Shown here: one piece after another, positions 34,266 through 59,173 of the stretch
How the letters are laid out: the number at the start of each line of letters is the position of its first letter
Position numbering within the stretch: the first letter of the stretch is position 1
Assembly (NCBI RefSeq): GCF_004217135.1
Contig: NZ_SHKK01000001.1
Location: 3,224,001 to 3,288,000, forward strand
Length of the DNA stretch: 64,000 nucleotides
Direction: 5' to 3'
From: Micromonospora violae
Lineage (GTDB): Bacteria; Actinomycetota; Actinomycetes; Mycobacteriales; Micromonosporaceae
Program-made: the position numbers and the translations under genes
The notes under the pieces: model-generated
Told to the model about the DNA's origin: nothing
What the model saw: the letters and a program-made list of their open reading frames with translations, nothing else
Database searches by the model: none

Positions 34266-35234
34266 TCACACGGCCGGGGCGGTGCTCTTCTCGTTTGGCT
34301 TGTCACCAGCCTCGGCTGCTGCTTCGGCCTCGGCGATGATCCGTCGTTCTTCGTCGCGGTTTGCCCGGTACTGGCGGATGGAGTACGCCAGGGCGGCGGC
34401 CCAGACGACGTAGATGACGGCGTAGAAGGTGTAGCGGACGCTGTCGGACGCGTCGATCCAATCGCTGCGGAGCAGGGTGCGGGTGTTGGTGAGGATGATG
34501 AGGCCGCCGACGGCCGAGCCGAGGACGCGCGGCGGAATGTGCCGGACCAGCCAGGCGGCGATCGGCGCGGCGATGATGCCACCGATCAGCAGCGCGGCAA
34601 CCCAGGCGAAATTCACGCCTTCGGAGCCGATACCAATGATGAACCCGATGCTCGCCGCGACGGCGACGAGGAACTCGCTGGTGTCGATCGAGCCAATGGT
34701 CTTGCGGGGTTCGAGTCGACCGCTGGCCAGGATCGCGGGGGTGCCGACCGGGCCCCAGCCGCCGCCGCCGGTGGAGTCGACGAAGCCGGCGACCACGCCA
34801 AGCGGGGCGAGAAAACGCTTCCGCAGCGGCTTACCGAGGTTGCCCTTGGGCAGGCCCAACGCGGTGAAGCGGATCAGGATGTACAGCCCGAGCGCCAGCA
34901 GGATGATTGACATCAGCGGCGCGGCGGTCTCGGTCGACAAGCTCGACAGGAAGGTGGCACCGGCGAAGGCACCGACCGCGCCGGGGATACCGATCTTCCA
35001 GACGACGTTCCAGTTAACGTTTCCGAACCGCCAATGCGACGCGCCAGAGACCAGGGTGGTGCCGATCTCGGCGAGGTGAACGGTCGCTGAGGCCGCCGCC
35101 GGGTTGGTGCCGATGGCCAGCAGCAACGTTGTCGACGTGACGCCATATGCCATGCCGAGACTTCCATCGACAAGTTGGGCACCCAGGCCCACCAGTGCGA
35201 GGAGGAGCAGTTTTCGCATCTCTACCGCAGTCAT
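34266..35234 (-). CDS. Sulfite exporter TauE/SafE (TSUP) family permease
   Basis: A 322-residue membrane protein with about eight hydrophobic segments and the duplicated TSUP signature (GSLGMAYGVTSTTLLLAIG early, DSTGGGGWGPVGTPAIL in the middle). TSUP proteins move sulfite, sulfoacetate or related sulfur anions. The charged C-terminal tail (EERRIIAEAEAAAEAG) is cytoplasmic. Its ATG overlaps the stop of the Rrf2 regulator gene by four bases, so the pair is one operon. At the edge of an organosulfur region it may export excess sulfite or import a sulfur anion. Confidence 0.87.
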   Translation of the reverse strand: MTAVEMRKLLLLALVGLGAQLVDGSLGMAYGVTSTTLLLAIGTNPAAASATVHLAEIGTTLVSGASHWRFGNVNWNVVWKIGIPGAVGAFAGATFLSSLSTETAAPLMSIILLALGLYILIRFTALGLPKGNLGKPLRKRFLAPLGVVAGFVDSTGGGGWGPVGTPAILASGRLEPRKTIGSIDTSEFLVAVAASIGFIIGIGSEGVNFAWVAALLIGGIIAAPIAAWLVRHIPPRVLGSAVGGLIILTNTRTLLRSDWIDASDSVRYTFYAVIYVVWAAALAYSIRQYRANRDEERRIIAEAEAAAEAGDKPNEKSTAPAV

Positions 35235-35665
35235 GAAGGGGGTGGTGGCAGGTCGACCGGACTTCGTTGTCCGACGAGCACATCGGTCAGGGTGGCGCGA
35301 TCGACCACTTCCGCGATCGCCGCCTCAATGGACCGCCACAACTCGGGCAGGCCAGCGGCGACGCCTTCGTAGGCGACCTGTTGTGACGGCATTCCCCGCA
35401 CGGTGCTCAGCGAGCCCTGCAACGTGCGGAGGATGTCACCAACGCTGATCTCGCCCGCGGGACGCGCGAGGGCGTAACCGCCCCCGCCACCTCGCTGGCT
35501 GAACATCAGACCCGCACGACGCAGGTCCAACAAAATCCCGTGCAGGAAACTCAAGGGAATGTCCTGGTCCTCAGCCAACTTCGCGGCCTTGACAGGCCCG
35601 TCGGGGTAGCTGGCAGCGGTAACCATCGCCCGCACGGCGTAGTCGGCACGCGCCGAGATGTGCAT
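35231..35665 (-). CDS. Rrf2 family transcriptional regulator
   Basis: A 144-residue winged-helix regulator: MHISARADYAVRAM at the start, a recognition region IPLSFLHGILLDLRRAGLM and the wing RGGGGGYALARPAGEISVGD are all typical. The three Cys residues that hold the Fe-S cluster in IscR/NsrR are absent, so it belongs with cluster-free members such as CymR, the cysteine-synthesis regulator. ATG 35665 has GGAGGGG upstream. It is co-transcribed with the TSUP permease and is the best candidate for the protein binding the CCTAC-N7-GTAGG palindromes of this region (inference). Confidence 0.85.
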   Translation of the reverse strand: MHISARADYAVRAMVTAASYPDGPVKAAKLAEDQDIPLSFLHGILLDLRRAGLMFSQRGGGGGYALARPAGEISVGDILRTLQGSLSTVRGMPSQQVAYEGVAAGLPELWRSIEAAIAEVVDRATLTDVLVGQRSPVDLPPPPS

Positions 35666-36161
35666 CGCAAGGCTCCCCTCCGCACGGCCCGAGGTCGGAC
35701 CACCGGACCCGACGATCCACGTGATCGCACCTGTCCCATATTTCCTACTGGTTTGGTCGAGAATACGAGTTGGCGTTGTCGGCGACAACCCCCATCCGTC
35801 CCGACACTCAGCACAACCGGCCGAGGCTCAGGACGGCGCGTCGGGCGCCGGGGGCATCTAACCTCGGCGGGTTCAGCGCGATCGACCCGCGCTTCGACCA
35901 GGGCCTGGTGGACTTGCTCGGAATCCTGACCAGCAACTATCTGATCCGCCACACCGACGTCGGGGTACGCCGCGGCACCCTCGTAAAACCAGACAGAAGC
36001 ATGCCCTTCGCTGACGTGCTCGGCACGCGGGGACTGACCGGCACTCACCGCAGGCTGACCGAGAGCGACGCCGCGCAGCACTGTCTGCGCTGACTACATC
36101 AGACGGTGGGGCATCGGCTTGAACGCATCGAAGTATTTGGCTTGTCTCAGCGGGTAGAACT
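35666..36161. other. Intergenic DNA upstream of the Rrf2 gene and sulfonate operon
   Basis: About 500 bases between divergent units. A plus-strand frame at 35770-36093 is open but has no recognisable family or ribosome site. The stretch contains the probable Rrf2-gene promoter near 35740 with a degenerate copy of the shared palindrome. Confidence 0.4.
35744..35760. promoter_or_regulatory. Degenerate copy of the shared palindrome upstream of the Rrf2 gene
   Basis: CCTAC at 35744-35748 is followed after seven bases by GTCGA (3 of 5 match to GTAGG). It lies 79 bases before the Rrf2 start, where an autoregulatory site would be expected. Weak on its own. Confidence 0.3.
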
Positions 36162-36194
36162 CCTACTTGACAGGTAGGATTACTGGGATACTGT
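36162..36194 (+). promoter_or_regulatory. Promoter with overlapping palindromic operator for the sulfonate operon
   Basis: A consensus -35 TTGACA (36167-36172) and a -10-like TACTGT (36189-36194) are separated by 16 bases. The -35 lies inside the palindrome CCTAC-TTGACAG-GTAGG (36162-36178), so a bound regulator would block RNA polymerase. The start point expected seven bases after the -10 coincides with the ATG of the cysteine-rich small ORF at 36202, implying a leaderless transcript. Confidence 0.65.
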
Positions 36195-36201
36195 CGATCG
36201 C

Positions 36202-36297
36202 ATGGCCAGCCACCAGACCCCGCTCGATGGCACCGCGCTCGCGGTGTCACGCGGATGTTGCCGCGGCTGGACCGCCTCGTGCGGCTGCTGCCGCTGA
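36202..36297 (+). CDS. Cysteine-rich leader ORF, candidate cysteine-responsive attenuator
   Basis: A 31-residue ORF ending GCCRGWTASCGCCR: five Cys in the last 13 residues. It has no ribosome site, but its ATG sits where transcription should start from the promoter at 36167-36194, so it would be translated leaderless. Leaderless polycysteine ORFs upstream of sulfur genes act as cysteine-responsive attenuators in mycobacteria. It lies 153 bases before the flavin reductase gene of the sulfonate operon. When charged tRNA-Cys is scarce, ribosomes should stall on the Cys codons and change folding of the downstream leader. No coding function for the peptide is implied. Confidence 0.6.
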   Translation: MASHQTPLDGTALAVSRGCCRGWTASCGCCR

Positions 36298-36450
36298 GCG
36301 CCCAATTTCTGGCCCCTCCCCAATGTGGCTTCGCCGACTCGACGACGATCGGCAGCCTTCTCCGCGTCCCGATCCTTGGCCGCTCGACGCGCGCTGCGCC
36401 GACCCCTGCCCGGGTGCCGCTGCACGTCGTTCTCGATCAGGAGGACCGTC

Positions 36451-36963
36451 ATGACTGTCATCGACAAACCGCCCGCACCGGTCGAACCGACCATGTTCCG
36501 AGCCCTGCTGCGCCGCCAGGCCGCGTCGGTTGCGGTGATCACCACCGCTGGCGAGCCTCCGGTGGGGTTCACCGCAACCTCGTTCACGTCGGTGTCGCTA
36601 CGTCCGCCGTTGGTGTCGTTCTGCCTGGCCCGGTCATCGTCGAGTTGGCCGACCATCGAGGGCGCGGAACACGTCGCGGTGCACCTGCTCGGTGAGGACC
36701 AGCAGGACGTCGCACGGACCTTCGCGACCAGCGGCATCGACCGGTTCGCCGCGCACTCCGGCTGGCAGTACGGCCCGTATGGCGTGCCGCTGCTGCACGA
36801 GCCGGTCGCCTGGCTGCTGTGCCGGGTTACCCAGCGGGTTCTCGCCGGCGATCACGTGATCGTGCTGGCCGAGCCGCTGACCGGGAGCCACGGCGAGGGC
36901 GCACCCCTGCTGTACCACATGGGCGAGTACGCCGCCCTGAACCCAACCACGAAGGAGCCGTAG
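36451..36963 (+). CDS. Flavin reductase family protein
   Basis: A 170-residue flavin reductase (FMN-binding split-barrel fold): FRALLRRQAASVAVITTAG, FTATSFTSVSLRPPLVSFCL and ARTFATSGIDRF are family blocks. It reduces FMN with NAD(P)H and would supply FMNH2 to the two-component monooxygenases downstream. ATG 36451 follows AGGAGGACCGTC. It is the first structural gene after the cysteine leader, and the next gene starts immediately after its stop. It is closely similar to the reductase at 57467-58000. Confidence 0.87.
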   Translation: MTVIDKPPAPVEPTMFRALLRRQAASVAVITTAGEPPVGFTATSFTSVSLRPPLVSFCLARSSSSWPTIEGAEHVAVHLLGEDQQDVARTFATSGIDRFAAHSGWQYGPYGVPLLHEPVAWLLCRVTQRVLAGDHVIVLAEPLTGSHGEGAPLLYHMGEYAALNPTTKEP

Positions 36964-38028
36964 GTGAAGTCGCCAATCATCCTGGACCGACGGGCGTTCC
37001 TGACCGCCACGCTGGGCGCGGTCACGCTGGGCGCGACCGCATGCGCCGGGGACGACGCACCTCGGGCGGCGCTGGCCGCGGGCGCGCCGCTGCCGGAGTC
37101 GATACCGAAGGGCACCAAGCTCGTCGTGGGCGACAAGGAGCATCAGAAGGCGATCGAGTTCTCCGGCGAGGCCGAGAAGTTCACCTTCGATGTGGAGTGG
37201 GCCAACATCAGCGGTGGTCCGCAGACACTGGAGGCGTTCCGGGCCGACGCCCTGGATGTCGGGGCTGTCGCCGACATCCCGCCCATCCACTCGCAGTGGA
37301 CGAACATCCCCACCAAAATCGTCGCATCGAAGTACCGCCAGGATCCGCTGAACCACGCCATCTACCGGCTTGGCATCGCGCCGGGCGTCTCGGTCGCCAC
37401 CCTCGCGGACATTCGCGGCAAAAAGGTCGCGTACAGCCCGGGTCAGGCACAGGGCGCTCTGGTACTCCGCGTCCTGAAGCAGGCCGGACTGACCAAGAAC
37501 GACGTCCGGCTGGTCGAGCTGCCGAGCACCGGCGACGTGTATGCGACCGCGCTCGCCAGCCGCCAGGTCGACGTCGCCCCGATCGGCGGCGTGCAGATCA
37601 AACGCTACGAGACGAAGTACGGCCGCGACGGCGCCACCACCATCGCACACAGCTTGCGGGACGACCCCGGACACCTGTACGTGCCGGTCACCGTCCTGGC
37701 CGATCCGGCGAAGGCGGCCGCGATCCGTGAGTACGTGCAGGCGTGGGCGCGGGCCTGGCGGTGGCGGGAGGCCAACCCGGACGAGTGGATCGAGCGCTAC
37801 TACGTCAAGGATCAGGGCCTGACCGCCGACGACGGCAGGTGGCTGGTGGAGAACGGCGGGGTGGCCGACATACCGGCGAGTTGGACCGAGGCCATCGCCC
37901 GGCACCAGGAGACCATCGACCTGCTGGCGAAGGAGACCGGGAACAAGCCCCTCAAGGCCGAGGACCTGTATGACCGGCGGTACGAATCCGTCGCCGCGGA
38001 CGCTCTCGTCGCGGTGGGATCCCGATGA
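36964..38028 (+). CDS. Sulfonate-type ABC transporter substrate-binding lipoprotein, SsuA-like
   Basis: A 354-residue NrtA/SsuA/TauA-type binding protein. The N-terminus DRRAFLTATLGAVTLGATAC has twin Arg and a lipobox ending in Cys, so it is a probable Tat-exported lipoprotein. The body has FRADALDVGAVADIPP and KKVAYSPGQAQGALVLRVL, typical of the family. GTG 36964 follows directly after the flavin reductase stop. The permease start overlaps its stop (ATGA). It captures aliphatic sulfonates or related anions outside the membrane. Confidence 0.87.
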   Translation: MKSPIILDRRAFLTATLGAVTLGATACAGDDAPRAALAAGAPLPESIPKGTKLVVGDKEHQKAIEFSGEAEKFTFDVEWANISGGPQTLEAFRADALDVGAVADIPPIHSQWTNIPTKIVASKYRQDPLNHAIYRLGIAPGVSVATLADIRGKKVAYSPGQAQGALVLRVLKQAGLTKNDVRLVELPSTGDVYATALASRQVDVAPIGGVQIKRYETKYGRDGATTIAHSLRDDPGHLYVPVTVLADPAKAAAIREYVQAWARAWRWREANPDEWIERYYVKDQGLTADDGRWLVENGGVADIPASWTEAIARHQETIDLLAKETGNKPLKAEDLYDRRYESVAADALVAVGSR

Positions 38029-38861
38029 CCGCCTCGACGGTCACCCGTTACCGGCCCACGGCGGCCATCCCTGCCGGCCGGCCGAGGCGTCGCCTGAGGC
38101 CCGGCCGCCCCATCCCGTTCGGGGCGGCGATCGGTCCCTTCCTACTCTTGACGGTGTGGGCCGTGGGCTCGGCGGCCGGCTGGATTGACCCTCGTACCCT
38201 GTCGGCTCCCTGGACCGTGGTGAGCACGGCGGGCGATCTCATCGCCGACGGCCGACTACAGGACAACCTGGCCATCTCAGCTCGACGGGCCGGCCTGGGG
38301 CTCGCCATCGGCACCGTCCTCGGCACGGTATTGGCGTTGGTCGCTGGTCTGAGTCGGTGGGGCGAGGCCATCCTCGATGGCCCTATCCAGATCAAGCGGG
38401 CCATCCCCGCGCTCGCGCTGCTACCGCTGCTCGTCCTCTGGTTCGGCATCGGCGAACAGATGAAGGTCATCACCATCACGCTGGGCGTGTTCGTCCCCGT
38501 CTACATCCACACCCACAACGGCCTGCGCACCATCGACAGCCGGTACGTCGAACTGGGCGAGTCGCTGCGACTACGGAGGGCGGCGTTCATCCGCCGGATC
38601 GTGCTGCCCGGCGCGCTGCCCGGCTTTCTGCTCGGCATGCGGTTCGCGGTCGTCGGGGCGTGGCTGTCCCTGGTCGTCGTCGAGCAGATCAACTCGACCA
38701 GCGGCATCGGCTACATGATGGAGCTGGCCCGGGAGTACGGCCAGACCGACGTGATCATCGTCGGGCTCGTGCTGTACGGGCTGCTCGGGCTGCTGTCTGA
38801 CGGCGCCGTCCGGCTCGCACAGAGGAGGGCACTGTCGTGGCGACGCACGCTGGCGGACTGA
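38025..38861 (+). CDS. ABC transporter permease, SsuC-like
   Basis: A 278-residue BPD-type permease with about six membrane segments and the cytoplasmic EAA-like loop ELGESLRLRRAAFIRRIVLPGALPG that docks on the ATPase. Early residues are basic (RRRLRPGRP), as in SsuC proteins. It is translationally coupled to the binding protein (ATGA) and overlaps the ATPase gene by 25 bases. It forms the membrane channel of the sulfonate importer. Confidence 0.87.
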   Translation: MTASTVTRYRPTAAIPAGRPRRRLRPGRPIPFGAAIGPFLLLTVWAVGSAAGWIDPRTLSAPWTVVSTAGDLIADGRLQDNLAISARRAGLGLAIGTVLGTVLALVAGLSRWGEAILDGPIQIKRAIPALALLPLLVLWFGIGEQMKVITITLGVFVPVYIHTHNGLRTIDSRYVELGESLRLRRAAFIRRIVLPGALPGFLLGMRFAVVGAWLSLVVVEQINSTSGIGYMMELAREYGQTDVIIVGLVLYGLLGLLSDGAVRLAQRRALSWRRTLAD

Positions 38862-39574
38862 CCACATCCCGCGCCGTACGCGTTCACAGCTTGGCGCGCG
38901 GCTTCGGGGATCGGGTGGTTCTCGACGGATTCGACCTGGAGATCGGCACGGGCGAGTTCGTCGCGCTGCTGGGACGCAGCGGCTCGGGCAAGAGCACCCT
39001 GCTGCGTGCTCTCGCCGGCCTCGACGGCGACGTCACGGGCTCGGGCCTGGTTGACGTACCGGAGAACTCCTCGGTCGTCTTTCAGGATGCCCGGCTCCTG
39101 CCGTGGCAGCGCGTCCTGGACAACGTCGTTCTCGGCCTGCGCGGACCGGACGCCATCGAGCGCGGCCGCGCCGCCCTCGCCGAGGTCGGTTTGGCCGGAC
39201 GCGAGCGGGCCTGGCCCAATGAGTTGTCCGGTGGTGAACAGCAGCGGGTCGCGCTGGCCCGGGCGCTGGTGTCCGAGCCGGAACTGCTGCTCGCCGACGA
39301 GCCGTTCGGCGCGCTGGACGCGCTGACCCGGCTGCGCATGCACGCCCTGCTGCGCGTGCTGCATGCCCGGCACCGGCCCACGGTGCTGCTCGTCACGCAC
39401 GACGTCGACGAGGCCATCACGCTGGCCGACCGCGTGCTGCTGCTGGACAGCGGCCGGATCGCCGTCGACCTCGCAATCGACCTACCAGCGCCGCGGTCGT
39501 ACCGGCAGCCGCAGTTCCTCGCGTACCGCGAAACCCTGCTGCGGGCGCTCGGCGTCGACGAGACGGAAGGATGA
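38837..39574 (+). CDS. ABC transporter ATP-binding protein, SsuB-like
   Basis: A 245-residue ATPase: Walker A GRSGSGKST, Q-loop VFQDARLLPWQRVLDNV, signature LSGGEQQRVALARAL, Walker B LLLADEPFGALD and switch VTHDVDEA. The QDARLLPW loop is typical of nitrate/sulfonate/taurine ATPases. GTG 38837 is preceded by AGGAGGG inside the permease gene. It powers the importer formed with the two preceding genes. Confidence 0.9.
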   Translation: MATHAGGLTTSRAVRVHSLARGFGDRVVLDGFDLEIGTGEFVALLGRSGSGKSTLLRALAGLDGDVTGSGLVDVPENSSVVFQDARLLPWQRVLDNVVLGLRGPDAIERGRAALAEVGLAGRERAWPNELSGGEQQRVALARALVSEPELLLADEPFGALDALTRLRMHALLRVLHARHRPTVLLVTHDVDEAITLADRVLLLDSGRIAVDLAIDLPAPRSYRQPQFLAYRETLLRALGVDETEG

Positions 39575-40908
39575 CCATGCTGCACCTCAACGCGTTTCTC
39601 ATGGGCGTCGGCCACCACGAGGCCGCCTGGCGCCTGCCCGACAGCGACCCGTTCGCGCAGACCGACGTCGAACACTTCAAGCGTCTTGCCCGCATCGCCG
39701 AACGCGGCAAGCTCGACTCGCTGTTCCTCGCCGACAGCCCGGTGCTGTGGAACAGCATCGGCCGGCGGCCGGGGGGCACCCTGGAGCCGACCGTGCTGCT
39801 CGCCGCCCTGGCTGGCGCGACGAACCACATCGGGCTGATCGCGACGGCGTCGACGACGTACAACGAGCCGTTCAACCTGGCCCGCCGGTTCGCGTCGTTG
39901 GACCACGTCAGCGGCGGTCGGGCGGGCTGGAACATCGTCACCACGGCCGGTGAGAAGGCGGCCCGGAACTTCAACCTGGACGACCTGCCAGCCCACCGGG
40001 ACCGGTACGAGCGGGCGGCCGAGTTCATCGAGGTGTCCCTGAAGCTCTGGGACAGTTGGGACGACGCGGCACCGCTCGGAGACAAGGACGGCGGGCGGTG
40101 GGGCGACGACGACCTGCTCTACCCGCCGGAGCACTCCGGACGGCACTTCCGGGTGGCCGGCCCGCTCAACGTCCCCCGCTCCCCGCAGGGCTACCCGCTG
40201 CTGGTGCAGGCCGGGTCATCCGAAGACGGCAAGGACCTCGCCGCCCGGTACGCGGAGGCCGTCTTCACCGCCCAGCAGACCCTCGCCGAGGCGCAGGCGT
40301 TCTACCGCGACCTCAAGCGGCGTGCCACGCAGGTCGGCCGCGACCCCGCCATCATCAAGATCCTGCCCGGCATCGTGCCGGCGATTGGCGCCACCGAGGC
40401 CGAGGCCCGCGCGCTAGAGGAGGAGCTGGACCGGTTGATCAAACCCGAGTACGCCCGGCAGCAGCTCGCCACGACGCTGCGGGTCGCCCCGGAAGACCTC
40501 GACCTGGACAAGGAACTGCCCGCGGACCTGCCGAGCGAGGACGAGATCGAGGGTGCGAAGAGCCGGTACACGCTGATCGTCACCCTGGCCCGGCGGGAAC
40601 GGCTGACCGTCCGCCAACTGATCGGCCGACTCGGCGGCGGGCGCGGGCACCGCACCTTCGCCGGTACGCCGGAGCAGGTCGCCGACGCCATCGAGGAGTG
40701 GTACCGCGGCGGCGCCGCGGACGGTTTCAACATCATGCCCCCGGTGCTGCCGTCCGGGCTGGAGACGTTCGTCGACCACGTCGTACCGATCCTGCAACGC
40801 CGCGGGCTGTTCCGCACCGAGTACACCGGGACCACCCTGCGCGAGCACTACGGGCTCCCCCGCCCGGCCAACCAGTTCACCCGGCAGCTCGCCGCCGCGA
40901 ACCGCTAA
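39571..40908 (+). CDS. LLM-class flavin monooxygenase (NtaA/SnaA/DszA/SoxA family)
   Basis: A 445-residue TIM-barrel, FMNH2-dependent monooxygenase. Family blocks: HHEAAWRLPDSDPF near the N-terminus, KLDSLFLADSPVLW, TASTTYNEPFNLARRFASLD, SGGRAGWNIVTT and FRVAGPLNVPRSPQGYPLLVQAG. The group oxidises sulfones, chelators or heterocycles with reduced FMN from a partner reductase. It overlaps the ATPase stop by four bases and lies in the sulfonate operon, so it probably opens an imported organosulfur compound. The substrate is not readable. Confidence 0.88.
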   Translation: MTMLHLNAFLMGVGHHEAAWRLPDSDPFAQTDVEHFKRLARIAERGKLDSLFLADSPVLWNSIGRRPGGTLEPTVLLAALAGATNHIGLIATASTTYNEPFNLARRFASLDHVSGGRAGWNIVTTAGEKAARNFNLDDLPAHRDRYERAAEFIEVSLKLWDSWDDAAPLGDKDGGRWGDDDLLYPPEHSGRHFRVAGPLNVPRSPQGYPLLVQAGSSEDGKDLAARYAEAVFTAQQTLAEAQAFYRDLKRRATQVGRDPAIIKILPGIVPAIGATEAEARALEEELDRLIKPEYARQQLATTLRVAPEDLDLDKELPADLPSEDEIEGAKSRYTLIVTLARRERLTVRQLIGRLGGGRGHRTFAGTPEQVADAIEEWYRGGAADGFNIMPPVLPSGLETFVDHVVPILQRRGLFRTEYTGTTLREHYGLPRPANQFTRQLAAANR

Positions 40909-40927: not shown

Positions 40928-41992
40928 GTGGTCAACTACCGGCCCTTCGGGCACACCGGCGTACGCATCAGCTCCCTGACCCTGGGCGCCATGAACTTCG
41001 GGCAACGGGGCAACCCGGACCACGAGGACGGCATCCGGATCATCCACCGGGCCCTCGACGAGGGCATCAACGCCATCGACACCGCGGACGTCTACTCCGG
41101 CGGCGAGTCGGAGGAGATCGTCGGGAAGGCCCTCGCGGGTGGGCGGCGCGACGACGTCTTCCTGGCCACCAAGTTCCACGGCCAGGTCGGCGACAACCCG
41201 CAGCACCGCGGCAATTCGCGTCGTTGGATCGTCCGGGCGGTGGAGGACAGCCTGCGCCGGCTGGGCACCGACTGGATCGACCTGTACCAGGCCCACCGGC
41301 CGGAGCCGGACACCGACTTCGACGAGACCTTGGGCGCGCTCTCCGACCTGGTGCGGCAGGGCACGATCCGCTATATCGGCACGTCCACGTTCGACCCGTC
41401 GGCGATCGTGGAGGGGCAGTGGATCGCGCAGCGGCGCGGCAGGGAGCGGGTGGTCAGCGAGCAGCCGCCGTACTCGATCCTGGCCCGCGGGATCGAGCGC
41501 GAGGTGCTACCGGTGGCCCAGCGGTACGGGCTGGCGGTGATCCCGTGGAGCCCACTGGCCGGCGGGTGGCTGTCCGGTCGCTACCACGGCGGGCTCACGG
41601 CGCCGATCTCCGGGCGCGCCGACCGGCTCCCGGCCCGGTTCGATCCGACCCTGCCAGCCAACGCGGCCAAGCTGACCGCCGTCGACGAACTGGCCGCGCT
41701 CGCCGACGAGGCCGGGCTGTCGCTCATCCACCTGGCGATCGCTTTCGTCCTGGAGCACCCGGCCGTCACGTCGGCGATCATCGGGCCGCGCACTCTGGCG
41801 CACCTGGAGTCGCAGCTCGGCGCCGCCAAGGTGACGCTGTCAGAGGACGTGCTCGCCCGCATCGACGCCATCGTCCCGCCCGGCACCACGCTGAACCCCG
41901 CCGACGCCGGCTACCAGCCGCCGTGGCTGGCCGATCCGGCGTACCGCCGTGGCGGCGGGTCATCGGCGCGGCGGATCGGGGTGGCCTCGTGA
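40928..41992 (+). CDS. Aldo/keto reductase
   Basis: A 354-residue aldo/keto reductase with LTLGAMNFGQRG, the Asp/Tyr pair in AIDTADVYSGGESEEIVG, the catalytic Lys in FLATKFHG, the DLYQAHRPEPDTDFDETL block and the cofactor part ITSAIIGPRTLAHLE. GTG 40928 has AAGGA upstream. It is embedded between two flavin monooxygenase steps of the sulfonate operon, so it may reduce an aldehyde or ketone released by C-S cleavage. That role is inference. Confidence 0.87.
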   Translation: MVNYRPFGHTGVRISSLTLGAMNFGQRGNPDHEDGIRIIHRALDEGINAIDTADVYSGGESEEIVGKALAGGRRDDVFLATKFHGQVGDNPQHRGNSRRWIVRAVEDSLRRLGTDWIDLYQAHRPEPDTDFDETLGALSDLVRQGTIRYIGTSTFDPSAIVEGQWIAQRRGRERVVSEQPPYSILARGIEREVLPVAQRYGLAVIPWSPLAGGWLSGRYHGGLTAPISGRADRLPARFDPTLPANAAKLTAVDELAALADEAGLSLIHLAIAFVLEHPAVTSAIIGPRTLAHLESQLGAAKVTLSEDVLARIDAIVPPGTTLNPADAGYQPPWLADPAYRRGGGSSARRIGVAS

Positions 41993-42561
41993 GCGGTGGG
42001 CCCTCGCCGACCCCGGACGTCGTGGTGCTGGTCGGCAACCCTCGCGCCGGGTCGCGTACCCGGGGCGTCGCCGAGGCGGTCGCCGAGGCACTACTGGATC
42101 GGTTGGGCAGACCGCCGAGCGCCATCCAGGTGCTGGAACTGGCCGAGATCGTCGGAGTGTCGTTCGGCCCGGAGCCGGCGTACGGGGCGAGGGCCGACCC
42201 TGATCCGTTCGCGGCGGTGCGGTCGGCGCGGCTGCTGATCGTCGCGACGCCTGCGTACAAGGGCAGCTACACCGGGCTGTTGAAGGTGTTCCTGGACCAG
42301 TTCGGGCACCGGGAGCTGGCCGAGGTGGTAGCGGTGCCAATAGCCGTGGCCGCCTCGCCGGCGCACGCCGACGCAGCCGCGTCGGCCCTGCGCGACGTGC
42401 TCGTCGAACTGGGCACACGTGTCCCGGCACCACCGTTGGCCGTGGTCGAGTCGCAGCTGGCGGACGCGCACAAAATCGCGGCGCAGTGGGCCGACCAGCA
42501 CAGCGCCGCGATCGACGCACCCCGGGCCGGCATGGACTACCTGGAAGGCCGCCACCGATGA
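41989..42561 (+). CDS. NADPH-dependent FMN reductase, SsuE-like
   Basis: A 190-residue flavodoxin-like reductase. VVLVGNPRAGSRTRGVAEAVAEAL is the phosphate-binding loop, and LLIVATPAYKGSYTGLLKVFLDQF is the conserved SsuE/ArsH block. It overlaps both neighbours (GTGA at its start, ATGA at its end), so translation is coupled to the AKR and the SsuD-like gene. It should provide FMNH2 to the monooxygenase that follows. Confidence 0.87.
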   Translation: MSGGPSPTPDVVVLVGNPRAGSRTRGVAEAVAEALLDRLGRPPSAIQVLELAEIVGVSFGPEPAYGARADPDPFAAVRSARLLIVATPAYKGSYTGLLKVFLDQFGHRELAEVVAVPIAVAASPAHADAAASALRDVLVELGTRVPAPPLAVVESQLADAHKIAAQWADQHSAAIDAPRAGMDYLEGRHR

Positions 42562-43619
42562 GTCCCGAGTTCCTCTGGTACATCCCGAACCAGGTCCAGC
42601 CCGGCCACCGCGGCGACGATGTGATCGATAACCACAACAGCCTGGACACCCTCACCAACCACGCCCGGGCTCTCGAGGAGCACGGGTGGGGCGGCGCGCT
42701 CCTCGGGACCGGCTGGGGACGGCCCGACACCTTCACGGTCGCCACCGCGCTCGCCGCCCGGACGACCACGTTCCAGCCGCTGATAGCAATCCGGCCCGGC
42801 TACTGGCGGCCCGCCAACTTCGCCTCCGCCGCCGCGACGCTCGACCACCTCAGCGAGGGTCGAACGCTGATCAACATCGTCTCGGGCAAGGACGACCTGG
42901 CGGCCTACGGCGACGGCGAGGCCAACCCGGCCCACCGCTACGCCCGCACCAGAGAGTTCCTCCAGATCGTCCGTAAGCTGTGGACCGAGGAGAACGTCAC
43001 CTACCAGGGCGAGCACTTCGCTGTTACCGGCTCCACCCTGGCGCTCCGACCGGTCGTCCGCGGCGAACGCAGACACCCCCGGCTCTACTTCGGCGGCGCC
43101 TCCCCCGCCGCCGAAGAGGTGGCCGCCACCGAGGCCGACGTCCAGCTGTTCTGGGGCGAGCCACTCGACGGCGTGGCCGATCGGATCGAACGACTCAAGC
43201 AGCTCAGCGAGAAACTGGGACGCGAGCACGCCCCGCTGGAGTTCGGGCTACGAGTCACCACCCTGGTGCGAGAAACCACCGAACAGGCCTGGGTCGATGC
43301 CGAAGCCAAAGTCGCCGACATGGCCAAGGGCAAAGGTGTCGCACGCGACCGGAACTGGCAGACCGCCGTCGGTCAGCGCCGGCTGCTCGACCTCGCCGCA
43401 CGCGGAGAGGTCCTCGACGACAACCTCTACACCACCCCCGGCACATTCGGTGGCGGCGGAGCGGGCACCACCTGGCTGGTCGGCTCCGCTGAGGACGTGG
43501 CGAACTCGCTACGCAAATACCAGCGGCTGGGCGTCACCCACTTCGTGCTCTCCGACACGCCCTACCTTCCCGAAATCAGGCGTCAGGGCGACCAACTGCT
43601 GCCACTGCTGCGCACCTGA
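42558..43619 (+). CDS. Alkanesulfonate monooxygenase-like LLM protein, SsuD-like
   Basis: A 353-residue luciferase-like monooxygenase. FATLD-type features: WGGALLGTGWGRPDTF, IAIRPGYWRPANFASAAATL, GRTLINIVSGKD, HRYARTREFLQIVRKLW and LYFGGASPAAEEVAA match SsuD. SsuD uses FMNH2 and O2 to cleave alkanesulfonates to aldehyde and sulfite. It is coupled to the upstream SsuE-like gene (ATGA) and is the last gene of the operon that starts at the cysteine leader. Confidence 0.87.
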   Translation: MSPEFLWYIPNQVQPGHRGDDVIDNHNSLDTLTNHARALEEHGWGGALLGTGWGRPDTFTVATALAARTTTFQPLIAIRPGYWRPANFASAAATLDHLSEGRTLINIVSGKDDLAAYGDGEANPAHRYARTREFLQIVRKLWTEENVTYQGEHFAVTGSTLALRPVVRGERRHPRLYFGGASPAAEEVAATEADVQLFWGEPLDGVADRIERLKQLSEKLGREHAPLEFGLRVTTLVRETTEQAWVDAEAKVADMAKGKGVARDRNWQTAVGQRRLLDLAARGEVLDDNLYTTPGTFGGGGAGTTWLVGSAEDVANSLRKYQRLGVTHFVLSDTPYLPEIRRQGDQLLPLLRT

Positions 43620-56442: not shown

Positions 56443-56449
56443 CGCATAC

Positions 56450-56466
56450 CCTACTTGGCCGATAGG
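56450..56466. promoter_or_regulatory. Shared palindrome CCTAC-N7-ATAGG
   Basis: CCTAC (56450-56454), seven bases, ATAGG (56462-56466), followed by ATTTAC as at the other copies. It lies about 96 bases upstream of the minus-strand leader peptide. Same architecture as the sites at 36162 and 59118. Confidence 0.55.
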
Positions 56467-56518
56467 ATTTACCGGGATTCCGCCCCCTGGCCGGTGCACC
56501 AGTCAACGCCCGTCCGGC

Positions 56519-59012: not shown

Positions 59013-59105
59013 TCAGGCCTGGGTGGGCCCGCCGGGACAGAGCTGCGCGGCGACCCGCATCAGGTCGACGACCCGACGGGAGGTGAACAGCCGAACGGGC
59101 AGCAT
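59013..59105 (-). CDS. Putative leader peptide upstream of the DUF1684 unit
   Basis: A 30-residue ORF reading RLFTSRRVVDLMRVAAQLC near its end, matching the SRRHVDLxRVxxxLC pattern of actinobacterial sulfur leader peptides. Its ATG (59105) is only 13 bases from the palindrome at 59118-59134 and has no clear ribosome site, so it may be leaderless. It ends 126 bases before the DUF1684 start. Probable attenuator. Confidence 0.55.
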   Translation of the reverse strand: MLPVRLFTSRRVVDLMRVAAQLCPGGPTQA

Positions 59106-59117
59106 GGGATCGATTTT

Positions 59118-59134
59118 CCTACCAACAAGGTAGG
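59118..59134. promoter_or_regulatory. Shared palindrome CCTAC-N7-GTAGG in a divergent promoter
   Basis: CCTAC (59118-59122), seven bases, GTAGG (59130-59134): both half-sites perfect. It sits between the minus-strand leader peptide and the plus-strand LLM gene at 59174, so one bound regulator could control both. TAGGAT at 59131-59136 could be the plus-strand -10. Confidence 0.62.
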
Positions 59135-59173
59135 ATTTCAAGCCCTTGAGTCGAGCATCCTCGGAGGCGGACG

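Follow-up and report, generated by a model that had tools for sequence, protein, structure and literature searches.

We report that a sulfonate-type operon in a Micromonospora genome is probably under dual-input control, in which Rrf2-type repression at the promoter would be combined with a cysteine-sensing leaderless leader. The window, i.e. the whole stretch of 64,000 nucleotides that was analysed, corresponds to C1:3224001-3288000 of the 7.14-Mb genome, a single contig, of a soil bacterium that is kin of antibiotic producers. The two-layer architecture put forward in the original prediction draws support from four sides: an inverted repeat over the -35 region is conserved, it recurs at other sulfur promoters, an Rrf2-family gene is situated in its proximity, and the cysteine-rich leader ORF behind it is under coding selection.

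The cysteine-rich leader ORF and the downstream operon

A 31-codon ORF with five Cys among its last 13 residues had been predicted, and it is present with its ATG at 36202 and its TGA at 36297. The peptide, MASHQTPLDGTALAVSRGCCRGWTASCGCCR, carries Cys19, Cys20, Cys27, Cys29 and Cys30. For comparison, a census of short ORFs covered both strands of the window (15-60 amino acids, longest ORF per stop codon, ATG or GTG as start codon), and among the 434 ORFs obtained it is the sole one having at least five Cys in its last 13 residues. There was no Pfam match to the leader ORF, and the NCBIfam leader models NF042933, NF042934 and NF042936 matched neither the leader ORF nor two of its homologues.

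The assignment of the downstream genes (Table 1) to a sulfonate operon, as originally predicted, is supported by Pfam and NCBIfam matches; the NtaA/DmoA-type monooxygenase is the only one to pass its NCBIfam cut-off, the other matches being below theirs. The flavin reductase is 99% identical to that of Micromonospora acroterricola (Micromonosporaceae) over residues 1-154, and among the five loci returned for the reductase two are further Micromonospora records.

Table 1. Features of the leader ORF promoter, the operon and related sites (window positions unless otherwise given)
Feature	Position	Strand	Remarks
TauE/SafE sulfite exporter	34266..35234	-	Pfam; adjoins the Rrf2 gene
Rrf2-family regulator, candidate repeat binder	35231..35665	-	PF02082, 103.5 bits; divergent
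Operator-like inverted repeat TCCTAC-TTGACAG-GTAGGA	36161..36179	.	covers the -35 region
-35 hexamer TTGACA	36167..36172	+	inside the repeat
-10 element TACTGT (TANNNT)	36189..36194	+	7 nt before the ATG
Cysteine-rich leader ORF, likely leaderless	36202..36297	+	31 codons; core SRGCCRGWT
Leader between leader ORF and first gene	36298..36438	+	contains the invariant TCGACGACG block
Shine-Dalgarno AGGAGG of first operon gene	36439..36444	+	invariant in 14 aligned leaders
Flavin reductase, first operon gene	36451..36963	+	PF01613
SsuA-like substrate-binding lipoprotein	36964..38028	+	SsuA_fam 84.1 bits, cut-off 163.5
SsuC-like permease	38025..38861	+	221 bits, cut-off 347
SsuB-like ATPase	38837..39574	+	255 bits, cut-off 395; start codon uncertain
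NtaA/DmoA-family FMN-dependent monooxygenase	39571..40908	+	TIGR03860, 548 bits, over cut-off
Aldo-keto reductase	40928..41992	+	NCBIfam match
SsuE-like NADPH-dependent FMN reductase	41992..42561	+	72.4 bits, cut-off 164
SsuD-like alkanesulfonate monooxygenase	42558..43619	+	241 bits, cut-off 510; start inferred
Weaker operator-like site CCCTACTTGGCCGATAGGA	56449..56467	.	upstream of SBP_bac_5 gene
Second likely leaderless leader ORF MLPVRLFTSRRVVDLMRVAAQLCPGGPTQA	59013..59105	-	before DUF1684 and flavin reductase genes
Second operator copy	59117..59135	.	11 nt before leader ORF
Third operator and leader, MSVGPLLTLRRVVDLMRTASELCPGAPATD behind TCCTATCGTGCCGGTAGGA	G000:C1:2255336 (L122/L174)	-	

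Conservation of the leader ORF

The flavin reductase was used as query against 151 genomes of the genus, 94 of which contain a match (E up to 1e-40). Thirty loci were retrieved (L027-L056), including 16 (L027-L042) where the reductase identity is 76-100%. The leader ORF is present at 13 of these 16 loci (the window's own counted) and is always 31 codons long; in the remaining three, L039, L041 and L042, it is absent and the printed upstream sequence suggests that the reductase is located behind another gene. None of the 14 more distant loci of the genus carries the leader ORF, giving 17 of 30 loci without it.

Using a DNA pattern for SRGCCRGW, matches were obtained in eight of 298 genomes of the order, every one Micromonospora. 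When the family was searched with a looser pattern for the core (two mismatches), 89 of 250 genomes matched, and since the reversed control also matched often we take most of these to be chance matches. Ten of the places with a good core were retrieved and nine of them have an intact leader ORF, one in Micromonospora and eight in the genera g87 (five), g100, g102 and g113. The tenth (L167; G418:C17), in genus g86, is a degenerate copy that lacks an ATG or GTG where the start codon would be expected and has no stop codon ahead of the flavin reductase region; it retains the operator. As judged by eye from printed translations, the gene after the leader ORF encodes a flavin reductase in L163, L164 and L166, an SsuD-like protein in L165, an SsuC-like permease in L171 and an SsuA-like protein in L169, L170 and L172, from which the reductase has apparently been lost, while in L168 a short ORF begins like a reductase and continues like an aldo-keto reductase. 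Because the downstream genes vary among the loci, the leader ORF seems tied to the operon and not to one particular gene.

For the 12 unique Micromonospora leader ORFs, pN/pS is 0.38 in frame, the two alternative frames giving 1.59 and 1.41, and over codons 8-24 it is 0.14 (for loci found mostly via the flavin reductase). Judged by these sequence comparisons, the leader ORF is a conserved coding sequence under protein-coding selection, with a CysCys doublet and one to three more Cys clustered near its end. TGC codons arise readily in GC-rich DNA, but that the ORF is a chance Cys-rich stretch of GC-rich intergenic DNA is contradicted by the coding constraint and by the fixed architecture over five genera, and we regard this as practically negligible.

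Strong conservation of the peptide would also agree with a functional small peptide, e.g. a RiPP precursor or a metal-binding peptide, instead of a leader. In keeping with this, three homologues matched an epilancin-type lantibiotic model (E 0.0012 to 0.17; 12.1 to 18.9 bits). These scores are, however, far below the cut-off of 75, no modification enzyme is found among the scanned neighbour genes, and the position of the leader ORF ahead of sulfonate-type genes is maintained. We therefore find a peptide with a function of its own very unlikely, and a RiPP precursor was rejected given that the lantibiotic match is sub-threshold only.

Fifteen positions are invariant in ten diverse peptides (M1, L8, T11, AVSRGCCR at 14-21, W23, T24, G28 and C30); Cys27 and Cys29 are variable among the homologues, and some leaders have three Cys. 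The invariance of SRGCCRGWT is partly imposed, as some of the loci were found by the core pattern and the set of 22 promoters described below kept core-bearing loci only. Since the peptide core is conserved, a nascent-chain effect is suggested, i.e. the SRGCCRGWT nascent peptide might arrest or slow the ribosome in response to sulfur or redox, or act in trans, with the counting of Cys-tRNA being secondary. Such an effect would fit with the invariance of R17, R21, W23 and T24 beside the Cys residues in the ten peptides (partly a result of selection), with the low pN/pS over codons 8-24, with the substitution of Cys27 and Cys29 in some homologues, and with a core conserved beyond the needs of Cys-tRNA counting. 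On the other hand, the CysCys doublet and the last Cys belong to the least variable residues, and leaders of the NF042934 type likewise share a motif outside Cys; we consider this explanation unlikely. It is likewise doubtful that the SRGCCRGWT chain is a sulfur sensor in the sense of a leaderless arrest peptide that stalls in dependence on both Cys-tRNA and the peptide sequence and is paired with an Rrf2 operator. Dual-input control with a leader that reads the Cys-tRNA supply is the reading that we favour.

The promoter and the operator-like repeat

Upstream of the leader ORF the order is TTGACA, N16, TACTGT, 7 nt and ATG. Of the near-consensus promoter that had been predicted, the -35 hexamer equals the consensus, but the -10 element agrees with TATAAT at just three of six positions, and a consensus promoter scanner run at its threshold reported no promoter-like sites in 35500-37500. 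In the same way, the palindrome over the -35 region that had been described as perfect has perfect 6-bp arms, but one pair is mismatched within the seven inner bases (TTGACAG), making it imperfect overall. CCTA-N9-TAGG is present at three sites in the window, where 0.06 would be expected, and TCCTAC-N7-GTAGGA at two, with none in 100 first-order Markov simulations.

To this were added homologous promoters from 31 core-motif loci, some being duplicate fetches, which left 22 unique sequences once the degenerate L167 had been dropped. Thirteen leader ORF loci came from the flavin reductase search, and none of the loci was selected by the repeat. CCTA-N9-TAGG is found in all 22 promoters, beginning mostly at position -40 relative to the start codon (19 promoters) and otherwise at -39 (two) or -41 (one); TTGACA is unbroken in seven. 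Hence, the repeat is conserved apart from the -35 hexamer, and it is well supported by sequence conservation as a separate operator-like element that is maintained independently of TTGACA. The -10 element has T in 22, A in 21 and T in 20 of the 22 promoters and a fixed gap of 6-7 nt to the start codon. This fixed geometry places the predicted transcription start at or beside the A of ATG 36202, and the fixed -10 distance together with the invariant repeat would be the pattern expected of a leaderless promoter under an operator. Approximately 10 nt upstream of the operator, a TCYCAR element (36145-36150) was seen by eye in 20 of the 22 homologous promoters.

Occurrence of the repeat and the candidate Rrf2 regulator

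TCCTAC-N7-GTAGGA has three sites in the genome (36161 and 59117 in the window, and 4679278) compared to none for the reversed control, and all are beside sulfonate-type genes; the one at 4679278 precedes an SsuA-family gene (SsuA_fam 179.4 bits, over the cut-off of 163.5). A looser operator pattern equals its control in this genome (3 and 3), and in the genus the operator pattern is present in 89 of 151 genomes and the reversed control in about 45. The pattern count by itself is thus weak evidence, and the case rests on position and context. By our reading of the sequences of 30 retrieved repeat loci, 22 place the repeat approximately 20 nt before an SsuA-like gene, three before an RVVDLMRVA-type leader, three before a small membrane-protein-like gene resembling the one ahead of a YeiH-like gene in this genome, and one before a flavin reductase, with one being ambiguous. 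The repeat therefore appears to mark other sulfur promoters as well. A weaker site, CCCTACTTGGCCGATAGGA, is situated approximately 200 bp upstream of a gene for a family-5 extracellular solute-binding protein.

The candidate binder of the repeat, the divergently encoded Rrf2-family protein (Table 1), has no Cys residues and scores 75.2 bits against the CymR model, below the equivalog cut-off of 195; the IscR model scores near-equal at 74 bits, also below its cut-off. Among the 64 genomes with a listed repeat, 50 have an Rrf2 relative no more than 5 kb away from it (median 2.76 kb), at a distance of 2.7-3.3 kb in 47 genomes and closer in three (this genome, G272 and G399); in the latter two, G272 and G399, the Rrf2 gene itself directly follows the repeat. 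These 50 linkages are not independent, since they largely represent one inherited locus. The 14 exceptions include seven genomes with distant Rrf2 relatives only. Moreover, G275 has kept the leader ORF and CCTA-N9-TAGG with a best Rrf2 match of 47% identity, and in genus g87 (three genomes examined) the leader ORF is present and the best Rrf2 matches are 48-49% identical. It is because of the exceptions, G275 and the g87 genomes without a close Rrf2 relative that we infer, and do not assert, binding of the Rrf2 protein to the repeat.

In line with these exceptions, the repeat could be genuine and its binder a factor other than the neighbouring Rrf2 protein, e.g. in G343, G344, G185 and G320, which carry the repeat before an SsuA-like gene and have no close Rrf2 relative. 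This is countered by the distances in the 47 and three of the 64 listed genomes and by the CC-N13-GG spacing of the repeat, which we take to resemble an IscR type-2 motif, such that another binder is in our view rather unlikely. With the Rrf2 protein as the preferred binder, the repeat and its proximity to Rrf2 genes would define, for Micromonosporaceae, a candidate sulfur regulon under Rrf2 control.

RNA structure of the leader

No terminator-like sites were detected in 35500-37500, and a classical transcription attenuator was rejected on this ground; Rfam gave no match within 36050-36550 up to E=1. RNAalifold on nine leaders predicted a hairpin over codons 10-16 plus a surrounding stem. However, two-sided changes are absent from all 24 pairs, several of which are broken in some rows, and a conserved RNA switch in the leader ORF was therefore rejected.

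The Shine-Dalgarno sequence is largely paired in 14 folded leaders, with pairing partners that differ between the leaders. Its mean accessibility is 0.28 in the free leader, 0.27 and 0.25 with a stalled ribosome, 0.29 with a terminating and 0.31 with an early ribosome, compared to 0.25-0.26 for shuffled sequences. A conserved sequestration of the Shine-Dalgarno sequence was set aside, since the partners vary and the simulated ribosome footprints give no gain in accessibility (14 leaders, thermodynamic folding).

The TCGACGACG block (36339-36347), approximately 40 nt past the stop codon of the leader ORF, is invariant in the 14 aligned leaders and has variable flanks. Pairing of this block with sequence near the Shine-Dalgarno was considered and rejected, as inspection by eye showed no covariation and, in two or more of the 14 rows, disrupted pairing.

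With no terminator, Rfam match, compensating pairs or opening of the Shine-Dalgarno found, the translational and the Rho-dependent models both stay, and the leader may act translationally, through Rho or by a nascent-chain effect, all of which are compatible with these data. Cysteine-tRNA-dependent attenuation, the second of the two predicted layers, is without these structural signs at the 36202 leader ORF but plausible by analogy with mycobacteria.

Proposed mechanism and relation to known systems

In the mechanism that we propose, a CymR-like Rrf2-family repressor, encoded by the divergent Rrf2 gene or by its paralogue in the ssu locus (G000:C1:4682037), would bind TCCTAC-N7-GTAGGA over the -35 when sulfur is plentiful and block RNA polymerase. 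With the repressor off, transcription would begin with the A of the ATG or a neighbouring base and a 70S ribosome would start on the leaderless ORF, where, by analogy with mycobacteria, it would read the Cys-tRNA supply at the codons for the constant CysCys doublet and the final Cys. When cysteine is present the leader ORF would be completed and downstream expression kept low, and when it is absent the stalled ribosome would permit expression of the flavin reductase/ssu operon.

In the mycobacterial type of polycysteine attenuator a stalled ribosome relieves a structure that sequesters the ribosome binding site. Canestrari and colleagues are said to have described, in 2020, mycobacterial polycysteine leaderless short ORFs through which cysteine supply gates an operon via translation. 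The mycobacterial leaders (NF042933 leader_Ms5788A and NF042936 leader_Ms4527A) share with the leader studied here the C-terminal Cys codons and a sulfur-metabolism operon downstream, but the peptide core is different, and the promoter here has a conserved repeat near Rrf2 genes. Leaders of the NF042934 cis_reg_atten type are similarly short and precede sulfur-type genes in this genome, but the model fails to detect the 36202 leader ORF; the ORF at 59013-59105, behind another copy of the operator, is a distant relative of this type. Like CymR, which regulates cysteine metabolism in Bacillus subtilis, the window Rrf2 protein belongs to the Rrf2 family and is linked to sulfur genes, but it is under the equivalog cut-off with IscR scoring near-equal. 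Finally, the Escherichia coli trp operon has the TrpR operator over the promoter and the trpL attenuator downstream. It thereby joins a repressor site over a promoter to leader-peptide control downstream, as here, whereas the present leader involves Cys, is likely leaderless, had no intrinsic terminator detected and would be paired with a different repressor family.

That polycysteine leaders are known in mycobacteria, as the original prediction had it, agrees with a publication according to which leaderless ORFs with contiguous Cys codons in Mycobacterium smegmatis confer cysteine-dependent attenuation of downstream translation (PMC9031893). Other publications describe Cys-rich leaderless ORFs, one ahead of cysA2 (PMC4633059), predict Cys leader peptides without terminators, with Rho suggested (in 2005; PMC1262725), mention translation attenuation for cysteine genes (PMC13236596), and propose a CymR/Rrf2 protein, the gene of which has no adjoining sulfur genes, as sulfur regulator in Rhodococcus (PMC8557817).

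Among the matches listed (titles and abstract openings, with few subscription journals) there was no report joining an Rrf2 operator and a cysteine leader. To this extent the suggestion that the combination is new stands, but the genome has two more such promoters and trp is a precedent. As far as we have seen, what is new is the class of leaders with the SRGCCRGWT core, the fixed combination of this class with an operator-like repeat across five genera, and the candidate regulon; leaderless Cys leaders, and the design of an operator plus a leader peptide (trp), are already known. By our data, the range of leaderless cysteine-type leaders would come to include sulfonate genes in Micromonosporaceae, where the peptide class is one that the NCBIfam leader models tried do not recognise, and the candidate Rrf2 regulon for sulfur would have a clear operator motif. 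The conserved peptide core also raises the question whether leaders of this sort have a role beyond the counting of charged tRNA; were the nascent chain a sensor, one promoter would read sulfur status by two independent chemistries.

Other leaders in the genome and in Plantactinospora

The second leader ORF, at 59013-59105, scores 21.9 bits against NF042933 (cut-off 45) and 18.4 bits against NF042934 (cut-off 27), and would thus be a distant relative of the NF042933 (Ms5788A family)/NF042934 leaders. By eye, its repeat (59117-59135) sits between the two hexamers of a possible promoter, TTGAAA-N17-GAAAAT. The third leader, MSVGPLLTLRRVVDLMRTASELCPGAPATD, which is likewise likely leaderless, precedes a small ORF resembling a membrane protein and a gene for a YeiH-like putative exporter of sulfate (TIGR00698 86 bits, cut-off 232.6). 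The gap between repeat and ATG is 10-11 nt at the second and third leaders compared to 22 nt at 36161, so the three leader promoters are not built alike.

A full Ms5788A-family leader, MGTHLTKRRAVDLCRVATCLCRPVI (63.6 bits, cut-off 45), was identified on the minus strand at G000:C1:5129061 (L118), preceding a gene that resembles a sulfurtransferase. No CCTA-N9-TAGG is present within the stretch examined at this and three other candidate leaders (L119, L120 and L125, the last being below the cut-off). The genome holds operator-only, leader-only and combined promoters, which makes the contribution of each layer directly testable. In Plantactinospora, the operon homologue (L012; reductase 73% identical) is preceded by a different candidate leader, MSSELRLTIRGHIDFGRVWSSSCLS, related to NF042936 with a score below the cut-off (19.9 bits of 45).
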